Source: Williamsia sterculiae
GTDB taxonomy: Bacteria > Actinomycetota > Actinomycetes > Mycobacteriales > Mycobacteriaceae
NCBI RefSeq assembly: GCF_900156495.1
Contig: NZ_FTNT01000003.1
Location: 434,001 to 498,000 of the forward strand
Reading direction: 5' to 3'
DNA length: 64,000 nt
Position 1 is the first letter of the stretch, and every line of letters begins with the position of its first letter. Below are positions 47,399 to 49,683 of the stretch, piece by piece. The notes under the pieces are model-generated. The model saw only the letters and a list, made by a program, of their open reading frames with translations. It had not been told where the DNA came from and ran no database searches. A program made the position numbers and the translations under genes.

Positions 47399-48628
47399 TC
47401 ACCCGGGGCCACCGACCTCGGTCGACGCCTGCGCTGGATCATCGCGTCGAGCCGGTCCGGTGAGCCGCACACCATGGTCCGCACCGCTGCGGAACCAACG
47501 GGCATCCTCTGCGGCCGAGATCCTGTGCGGGTGATCACGGGCGTAGTCGTCGAAGCGCGTTCGTACGTCGGGTACCTCACGAATGGTCGGATCGGCGCAT
47601 GCCGCTTCGAAGAAGCGTTTTCCCCACAGGGTGTCGGTGGTGGCACGCGCACCGACGGTTCCGAAATCGCGCGGGAGGTCACCGTGTAACAGGCAACGAA
47701 GGGTTGTGTTGAGCCGGTTCGCGTATGCGGTGATGCCGCGCCGCGGCAGACCACGAACGGGCATGTTCAGCGGTGCGACGCGCCCGGGGAACACCGCGAC
47801 ATCGTCACCCACGGTGGCGGAGAGCGTGGCGACCTCGTCGAGAACCCGATCTTGGTGGAAATTCCCGTCCCATTCGAGCATTACGTTGGTATGTCGCAAT
47901 CGCGGATTGCCCAGAGCGACACGTAACAGCGTCCAGGCGTCCGCATGGACCGTATGGGTGTGAGTGTCGCGGTAGAGCCGGTCGGAACCGTAGACGCCGC
48001 CGCCGATGTGCAGATACGCGACCCGTTCCAGGGGATATCGGGCGATGACCGTTGCCGGGTCGGTGCCGTGCAGGGACGCCGCGGCGAGAACGTTGGAGAC
48101 GTCGAGAATGAATCCGACATCGCTGATGGATGCAAGGTGGTCGAAGTAGTCGGCCTCCGTCCAGGTGGACTCGGCGAAGTCCATGGTCGAGGCGATGTTC
48201 TCCAGCACGAATGGACGCTCGACGATGTCGGCAACGACCCGCGCGTTCGCCGCGACCACGCGAGCCGAACGCTTGGTGAGCGGGGGAGCGAGGAGGTGGC
48301 CACTGTGCAGGAGACCACCGTGGGGACTGTTGGGCCGGCGGCCCGCACGGGTGAACGCTATGTGCTCGGAAACGACCGGCGAGTCGAGCATGCGCGCGAC
48401 GTCACGCAGGTGGACCGCCGTGGTGTGATCGTCGAGCGCATCGGGGGACGCGATCGACAGCGTGACACCGTGGGTGACAACGGGGACGTCGAGTGCACGC
48501 AGGTGGGCAAGGTCATCTGGAAGGTGGCAGCAGATGTTCTCGGCGATCACTTCGGTGAAGGCAATCCGCTCGTCGTCGAGCAGCACATCGGCGAGCTCAG
48601 GCCGCCACCCCAACCCGACCGCACCCAT
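47399..48628 (-). CDS. DUF692 multinuclear non-heme iron oxidative enzyme (MNIO) with C-terminal extension
   Basis: MNIO enzymes (MbnB, TglH, BufB) use two or three iron atoms to modify cysteine residues of ribosomal peptides. The 409-residue protein has the family residues: Glu26 and Glu30-Asn31, His53 (THGVTLSIAS), Glu88-His89 (VSEHIAF), Glu143-Asn144 (VLENIAS), Asp176 and Asn179 (ILDVSNV), His207 (AYLHIGGG), His228-x-Asp230, and Glu252 (MLEWDG). The core ends near 285; typical members are 280-300 residues, so about 120 residues (LNMPVRGLPRRG to the end) are extra and could be a fused partner domain. Its ATG follows the TGA of the peptide gene directly (TGAATG), with GGAGGAGG inside that gene. 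Confidence 0.88.
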   Translation of the reverse strand: MGAVGLGWRPELADVLLDDERIAFTEVIAENICCHLPDDLAHLRALDVPVVTHGVTLSIASPDALDDHTTAVHLRDVARMLDSPVVSEHIAFTRAGRRPNSPHGGLLHSGHLLAPPLTKRSARVVAANARVVADIVERPFVLENIASTMDFAESTWTEADYFDHLASISDVGFILDVSNVLAAASLHGTDPATVIARYPLERVAYLHIGGGVYGSDRLYRDTHTHTVHADAWTLLRVALGNPRLRHTNVMLEWDGNFHQDRVLDEVATLSATVGDDVAVFPGRVAPLNMPVRGLPRRGITAYANRLNTTLRCLLHGDLPRDFGTVGARATTDTLWGKRFFEAACADPTIREVPDVRTRFDDYARDHPHRISAAEDARWFRSGADHGVRLTGPARRDDPAQASTEVGGPG

Positions 48629-48973
48629 TCAGGATCCTCCTCCGCCGCAGCCTCCTCCGCCACAGCTACTTCCACCGCCACAGCTACTCCCACCACCGCA
48701 GCCGTGGTGACCTCCTCCGCCGTGATGATGACCGCCACCGCCCCCCGAACTCCCGAAGTCGGTTCCGGCGGCACCGGAACCGCCGGCAGCGAAGAAGCCC
48801 ATGCCATTGGTCGATCGTGTGCGTCGCCTCGGGGGTGGCGCACCGTCGGGGTTCGCTTCGGGGGTGTCCCAGTCAGGAAGTTGGGTGGGTCTCCGTCGTT
48901 CGGATGAACGAACCACGACCCACACCACCCCGACGACGACGAGTACGACCACGGCAACAGCGATGAATCCCAT
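48629..48973 (-). CDS. Membrane-anchored Gly/Ser/His/Cys-rich peptide, candidate MNIO substrate
   Basis: The 114-residue protein has one membrane helix (FIAVAVVVLVVVGVVWVVV, residues 3-21), a basic and proline-rich linker (RSSERRR, PPPRRRTR), then a tail from about 74 made almost only of Gly, Ser, His and Cys. Histidines are at 82-84 and 89-90. Cysteines are at 92, 98, 104 and 109, in hexad-like units CGGGSS, CGGGSS, CGGGG, CGGGGS. Charge distribution predicts the tail on the cytoplasmic side. AGGAGG precedes the ATG and lies inside the end of the TetR gene; the stop abuts the MNIO start. This is the layout of a substrate next to its modifying enzyme, but modification is inferred. Confidence 0.8.
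   Translation of the reverse strand: MGFIAVAVVVLVVVGVVWVVVRSSERRRPTQLPDWDTPEANPDGAPPPRRRTRSTNGMGFFAAGGSGAAGTDFGSSGGGGGHHHGGGGHHGCGGGSSCGGGSSCGGGGCGGGGS
48657..48688 (-). repeat. 18-bp tandem coding repeat in the Cys-rich tail
   Basis: CCGCCACAGCTACT occurs at 48657-48670 and again exactly 18 bp later at 48675-48688. It encodes the CGGGSS hexads of the peptide tail, so the tail has probably grown by in-frame duplication. Confidence 0.75.
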
Positions 48974-48976
48974 GGA

Positions 48977-49621
48977 TCACCCTCCTGACTCTCCGGACCC
49001 GAGGACCAGGACTTGTGGAGTTGCGTCGGAACTGAAGTCGCCACCTGTCGCCACCATCGCGTCGATCAGGTCGAAGACATGATCGGTGGTGACGCTGGGA
49101 TCGATGATGCGCCTCAGGGCCAGACCGAAGGCCAAGTCCAAGATCACCTCGGCAATCCGGTAGGGCGTGAACGGCTGTGGGCCGGGTACCACTTGTTCGA
49201 GCAGTCGGGCGATCCTGTCGGCCGCGGCACGATTGCGCTTCCCCTCGGTCGAGACAACGTCGGGATTTCTGCGGTTGGCGAGCGCGAACTCCAGCTCCAG
49301 ACGCGGCCATCCCGACGCCAGGACCTCCTCGGTCCATGCTCGCGTCGCTCGAATGGTCGTCGACACGTCCCGCCCACCCGCGAAGATCGCCTCCAAGCGT
49401 CCGGCAGCCTCGCTCTGCAGGTCATCCAGAACTTCCAACGCCAACGCACCCTTGCTGGGGAAGTTCGAATAGAACGCGCCCGTGGTGAAACCGGCCTCGG
49501 CGGCGATGGCACTCACCGAGGCGTCCGCATAGCCGAGCTCGAGCAGCATGGCGCGACCCTGCTGTTTCAGCAGGCGTCGCGTCGCCGCTTGCGAGACCAC
49601 CCGAGAATTCGGCACCCGCAC
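48977..49621 (-). CDS. TetR-family regulator, first gene of the MNIO operon
   Basis: The 214-residue protein has the domain RRLLKQQGRAMLLELGYADASVSAIAAEAGFTTGAFYSNFPSKGALALEVL, residues about 15-66, and a helical ligand domain. Its last codons contain the ribosome site of the Cys-rich peptide gene, whose ATG is 3 bp past the stop, so the two are translationally linked. It is also divergent from the SDR/acyl-CoA synthetase/monooxygenase operon at 49702, with a palindrome between, so it may control both directions. Confidence 0.87.
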   Translation of the reverse strand: MRVPNSRVVSQAATRRLLKQQGRAMLLELGYADASVSAIAAEAGFTTGAFYSNFPSKGALALEVLDDLQSEAAGRLEAIFAGGRDVSTTIRATRAWTEEVLASGWPRLELEFALANRRNPDVVSTEGKRNRAAADRIARLLEQVVPGPQPFTPYRIAEVILDLAFGLALRRIIDPSVTTDHVFDLIDAMVATGGDFSSDATPQVLVLGSGESGG

Positions 49622-49664: not shown

Positions 49665-49683
49665 GCGTTATCCGAAATAACGC
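49665..49683. promoter_or_regulatory. Inverted-repeat operator between TetR-MNIO and the monooxygenase operon
   Basis: GCGTTAT (49665-49671) and ATAACGC (49677-49683) are perfect 7-bp arms with a 5-bp spacer. The site is 44 bp upstream of the TetR start and 19 bp upstream of the divergent SDR start, the expected place for a TetR operator acting on both promoters. Confidence 0.6.

Follow-up and report, generated by a model that had tools for sequence, protein, structure and literature searches.

Does the MNIO (DUF692) enzyme of Williamsia sterculiae act on the small membrane peptide encoded immediately before it, and if so, what would the pair make? We analysed a stretch of 64,000 nucleotides of this genome (the window) together with relatives of its genes. 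The parts of the peptide and MNIO genes are as follows.

48629..48973, reverse strand: mini precursor peptide, 114 aa, with an N-terminal TM helix, an Arg-rich linker and a Gly/His/Ser/Cys tail
48911..48970, reverse strand: TM helix of the peptide, residues 2-21, with no Lys or Arg ahead and R22 and R26-R28 straight behind
48632..48751, reverse strand: G/S/H/C tail of the peptide, residues 75-114, from the composition count
48981..48986, reverse strand: Shine-Dalgarno AGGAGG of the peptide gene, within the 3' end of the TetR gene
47399-48628, reverse strand: MNIO gene, 409 aa, from its PF05114 match
47804..48628, reverse strand: MNIO TIM-barrel, residues 1-275, from profile, motif alignment and model
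48636..48641, reverse strand: Shine-Dalgarno AGGAGG of the MNIO gene, built from tail Gly codons
47456..47731, reverse strand: partner (PME-type-2-like) helical domain, MNIO residues 300-391, from a profile match

The final 40 residues of the peptide consist of 24 Gly, 7 Ser, 5 His and 4 Cys, with no other residue. Each of the cysteines (Cys92, 98, 104 and 109) is followed by Gly, the histidines are clustered (H82-84, H89-90), and residues 2-21 form the single hydrophobic segment. The composition count and the Cys positions thus agree with an earlier note on this DNA, which had described a tail almost entirely of Gly, Ser, His and Cys with four cysteines. The adjacency that it described is also seen, as the TGA of the peptide gene is directly followed by the ATG of the MNIO gene (gap of 0 nt).

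The tail is neither a GC-rich artefact nor the product of a wrong frame, as judged by frame controls and by a codon comparison with a Williamsia MAG. Among 893 stop-bounded frames of at least 40 aa in the window, the peptide itself is the only one with a tail of this kind, and none of the opposite-strand frames at the loci of 62 relatives carries one. The 17-residue tail core encodes the same protein in the window and in the Williamsia MAG, with 16 nucleotide differences between them that include Ser swaps between AGY and TCN; judged by its codons, it is the protein sequence of the tail that is conserved. A 165-aa ORF (48547-49044) that competes with the peptide overlaps its frame in a shifted register and is unsupported. 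Elsewhere in the genome the tail spacing motif has one looser match, on a different contig, and a second peptide of this tail type was not found.

The enzyme matches PF05114 (MbnB_TglH_ChrH) with E=4.6e-57 and 193.7 bits (cut-off, 25). In TglH the iron ligands are H71, H107, E151, D184, H216 and E258, together with N187, D229 and H231 (PMC10880893); all nine have counterparts by conserved motif in the window MNIO, namely H53, H89, E143, D176, H207 and E252, together with N179, D221 and H223. Hence the claim of a DUF692 enzyme with all metal-ligand motifs holds. An AlphaFold2 model, built from an alignment of 28 relatives plus partner proteins (pLDDT 81), superposes on 8hi7_B, 7fc0_B and 3bww with Z scores of 26.4, 25.4 and 23.8, respectively; TglH, MbnB and the H. 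somnus protein 3bww thus fall at Z 24-26, whereas sugar-isomerase folds reach at most 18. Among curated models, that of BufB matches best, followed by HvfB, ApyH and MbnB, all below their cut-offs (BufB, 140 bits versus a curated cut-off of 310; HvfB, 118 versus 360). Since these scores lie far under the cut-offs, the BufB and HvfB chemistry is not safely transferable to the window MNIO.

In one respect the earlier note fell short: it had taken the enzyme for a bare DUF692 protein. The MNIOs of relatives stop after the barrel, and a small separate gene mostly comes next. A profile seeded from 13 such stand-alone proteins, encoded beside relatives' MNIOs, matches residues 300-391 of the window MNIO with an i-E of 1.7e-10, whereas none of 2000 shuffles did better than 0.26. 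Given this homology to stand-alone partners, the window MNIO is, on profile evidence, a natural MNIO-partner fusion. The same fusion is carried by the Williamsia MAG, at 67% identity over the alignment, which rules out a sequencing error. The partner family is helical in make-up, and a Lys-Arg pair is invariant in all 20 aligned members. At 50 of 51 actinobacterial MNIO loci, a set limited to relatives of the window MNIO and including the 13 loci that seeded the profile, the partner domain is encoded on the MNIO strand; at the single exception, the fetched stretch stops just past the MNIO. This frequency is higher than the published 'at least 10%' for TIGR04222 clusters.

In position, in size and in giving no match to the DUF2063 profile, the stand-alone partners fit the published PME-type 2. 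PF09836 (DUF2063; PME-type 1) matches neither the window domain nor its stand-alone relatives, while a BufC-type protein of Roseateles, used as a control, is matched at 84 bits. An RRE is absent from the fused domain, and a BLASTP similarity between that domain and a DUF2063 partner carries too little signal to be used as evidence. When the domain was modelled in isolation, the top aligned PDB match was MbnC, at a Z of 5.4 over 77 residues, which is weak in absolute terms (next match, 3.1), and Foldseek returned no confident match (E 3.0); the structural likeness to MbnC is suggestive only.

Fusions of this general kind have precedents: HvfB is at its most active when joined to HvfC in a laboratory construct, and MovX, an MNIO, naturally carries a fused recognition domain (PMC13419390). 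Three other MNIOs, Myxococcota included, carry part of the partner domain in frame with the barrel, and the fusion may therefore have arisen more than once. At two further loci, beside TIGR04222-type MNIOs, the partner domain has a 400-residue C-terminal extension (519 aa).

The pairing of an MNIO with a mini precursor recurs at 18 loci in five genera. Mini precursors are about 80-120 aa long, sometimes with two per locus, and the MNIOs of these loci fall on one side of a branch with support of 94/85, present in 97% of bootstrap trees; this support narrowly misses the level that the program stars, and the window and Williamsia sequences sit on a long branch. In this tree, mini precursors accompany one MNIO clade. 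Eight loci each encode two different minis, one with a Gly-rich and one with a Ser-rich tail, which suggests that a single enzyme acts on both. At the other sixteen mini loci, outside the window and the Williamsia MAG, the cluster lies directly after dapC, in the order fdxA-dapC where visible. In Tsukamurella tyrosinosolvens the order is fdxA-dapC-MNIO-mini precursor-partner, with both small genes annotated 'hypothetical', and a TIGR04222-MNIO pair is found at a separate site. These dapC-linked clusters in other genera suggest that the window pair descends from an ancestral unit next to dapC, having been moved and fused.

Most relatives' MNIOs lie next to a multi-TM protein of 280-360 aa with a Gly/Cys tail, and the three of these that were compared match the TIGR04222 profile at 83-104 bits. 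The arrangement of an MNIO beside a Gly/Cys-tailed membrane protein is known (Antoine et al. 2025, PMC12452194), so that the co-occurrence of DUF692 genes with Gly/Cys-rich low-complexity proteins in actinobacteria, which the earlier note had mentioned, is correct and already published. The window pair shares with the MNIO + TIGR04222 systems of that study an adjacent MNIO of the same family branch, a PME-type 2 partner, no signal peptide, and a C-terminal Gly/Ser-rich tail with spaced Cys beside the MNIO. However, the window peptide has one TM helix in 114 aa, no TIGR04222 domain and an extra His cluster; its tail is predicted on the opposite side, and the partner is fused in its MNIO. The TIGR04222 domain (229 positions, multi-TM) gave no match in the window peptide or in four mini relatives, and the window genome holds no TIGR04222 protein, which rules out a truncated TIGR04222 protein. 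The mini variant with a fused partner is apparently undescribed, and we found no literature on this architecture in mycobacteria. The published adjamnio-V group, very small proteins directly after MNIOs, of unknown function and not termed precursors (PMC12452194), could by its description take in mini precursors of the Tsukamurella type, whose genes come after that of the MNIO.

With 18 loci in five genera, a single clade, one MNIO gene in the window genome and no TIGR04222 protein in it, the enzyme-substrate pairing that the earlier note had proposed is well supported, and the peptide is the likely substrate of the adjacent MNIO. Alternatively, the Cys/His tail might work unmodified, as a metal ligand or a zinc/copper chaperone, with the MNIO acting on another residue or protein. 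Even unmodified, 4-7 Cys together with a His cluster would be able to bind Cu(I) or Zn(II); furthermore, a C-proximal Cys is missing from over a quarter of TIGR04222 proteins, and one third of TIGR04222-bearing genomes lack an MNIO (PMC12452194). We nevertheless regard this alternative as quite improbable, given that the sole MNIO of the genome is directly coupled to the peptide and that mini precursors follow a single MNIO clade. No copper or other metal genes were seen linked to these loci.

All 25 mini precursors carry at least three Lys or Arg within 25 residues downstream of the TM helix (mean 5.8) and nearly none before it. Since the charges stand after the helix and not before it, the positive-inside rule predicts that the tail probably faces the cytoplasm (N-out/C-in), the compartment that also holds the MNIO. 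The charge pattern also shows no positive n-region of a Sec signal peptide ahead of the TM helix of the window peptide, and no bufferin or oxazolin precursor profile in NCBIfam or Pfam matches it. The peptide might instead be N-in/C-out, its tail modified by the MNIO in the cytoplasm and then exported to the envelope like bufferins or TIGR04222 tails. In favour of export, the tails of TIGR04222 proteins, of the same Gly/Cys composition, are predicted to be periplasmic (PMC12452194), and known MNIO chelators work outside the cytoplasm (PMC13419390). Yet the Arg/Lys cluster behind the TM helix in 25 of 25 mini precursors is the opposite of what a C-out orientation requires, and the n-region of a signal peptide is absent from them. 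Export is thus unlikely.

Upstream of the peptide gene, the neighbourhood holds the following features.

48977..49621, reverse strand: TetR regulator, co-directional with the pair and ending 3 nt before the peptide ATG
49665..49683, no strand assigned: perfect palindrome GCGTTATCCGAAATAACGC, a probable TetR operator and the sole perfect copy in the genome
49702-53169, forward strand: divergent SDR / AMP-ligase / SDR cluster, with the palindrome lying between it and TetR

The TetR gene had been noted as part of the system, which the comparison with relatives contradicts. Eight TetR orthologues (about 41-61% identity) are divergent from the same SDR gene, seven of them with an acyl-CoA ligase next, and none has an MNIO nearby within the fetched stretches. 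Conversely, this TetR stands beside none of the other mini loci that were checked (on the Williamsia contig, the sequence covers 193 nt upstream); an unrelated member of the TetR family lies about 2.5 kb from one mini locus. By synteny, then, the TetR goes with the SDR and acyl-CoA ligase genes that diverge from it and is a passenger here, and its role as regulator of the peptide/MNIO system is rejected. Palindromes similar to GCGTTATCCGAAATAACGC occur in several relatives, and since the TetR-SDR arrangement recurs along with them, it is probably a conserved lipid-metabolism regulon. The unit could still be a lipid-stress module that TetR regulates and that is functionally tied to the SDR and acyl-CoA ligase genes on the other strand. 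The genes for TetR, peptide and MNIO run in the same direction, with gaps of 3 nt and 0 nt, and are therefore probably co-transcribed in the window genome, where the TetR promoter may also serve the peptide and the MNIO. However, we consider such a link highly improbable, because the eight orthologues adjoin the SDR gene, usually with the ligase, and lack an MNIO, and because the checked mini loci lack this TetR.

Taken together, we think it rather probable that the peptide and the MNIO form a two-gene maturation unit, in which a fusion MNIO oxidises the cysteines of a membrane peptide with a cytoplasmic tail to give a tethered soft-metal chelator. The N-terminal helix would insert the peptide in the cytoplasmic membrane, and the Gly/His/Cys tail would stay on the cytoplasmic side. 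The MNIO-partner fusion would bind two or three irons, use O2 and oxidise the tail cysteines, with 5-thiooxazole as the most likely product, a guess made by analogy because the BufB/HvfB enzymes score best. The modified peptide would then be a membrane-tethered chelator of soft metals, copper being the most plausible, aided by the His cluster. Both the oxidation to thiooxazole and the metal binding by the tail are proposed from analogies. Neither for mini precursors nor for TIGR04222 proteins is an activity, a mass shift or the binding of a metal known. What the computation itself shows is the gene pairing and its recurrence, the conserved ligands, the fold, the partner fusion and the pattern of charges; the substrate role of the peptide, its topology, the modification, the metal and the function in the cell are inferred from these.

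Those analogies have their limits. As in bufferins (BufA/BufB/BufC) and oxazolin (HvfA/HvfB/HvfC), whose MNIO models are the best-scoring curated ones for the window MNIO, an MNIO with a partner would act on several Cys of a small protein; their precursors, however, have Sec signal peptides and are exported, and their partners are of the DUF2063-RRE type (PME-type 1), both features being absent here. TglH/TglI and MbnB/MbnC share the barrel and iron ligands, and the window partner domain may resemble the N-terminal half of MbnC, but these systems turn short leader-core peptides into free natural products and use separate partners with an RRE. MovX of Vibrio is likewise an MNIO with a fused substrate-recognition domain, although there it is a C-terminal RRE/winged helix, whereas the window fusion carries a helical partner half. 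More tentatively, and with less confidence than we place in the maturation unit itself, the locus may represent a separate class of MNIO product: a single-TM, cytoplasm-facing, His/Cys-tailed peptide that is modified and retained in the membrane as an inner-face metal device; in this lineage its maker would be a natural MNIO-partner fusion without an RRE.

TIGR04222/MNIO systems are widespread in actinobacteria, and we found no report in the literature showing modification of their tails. Compared with multi-TM precursors, which are difficult to express, a precursor of 114 residues and four Cys whose enzyme comes in one piece offers a much easier test. The findings also bear on two stated puzzles. 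One is how MNIOs of the TIGR04222 type manage when no partner gene is apparent, to which the presence of a partner domain at nearly all actinobacterial loci examined is relevant; the other is whether MNIO products need to leave the cytoplasm.
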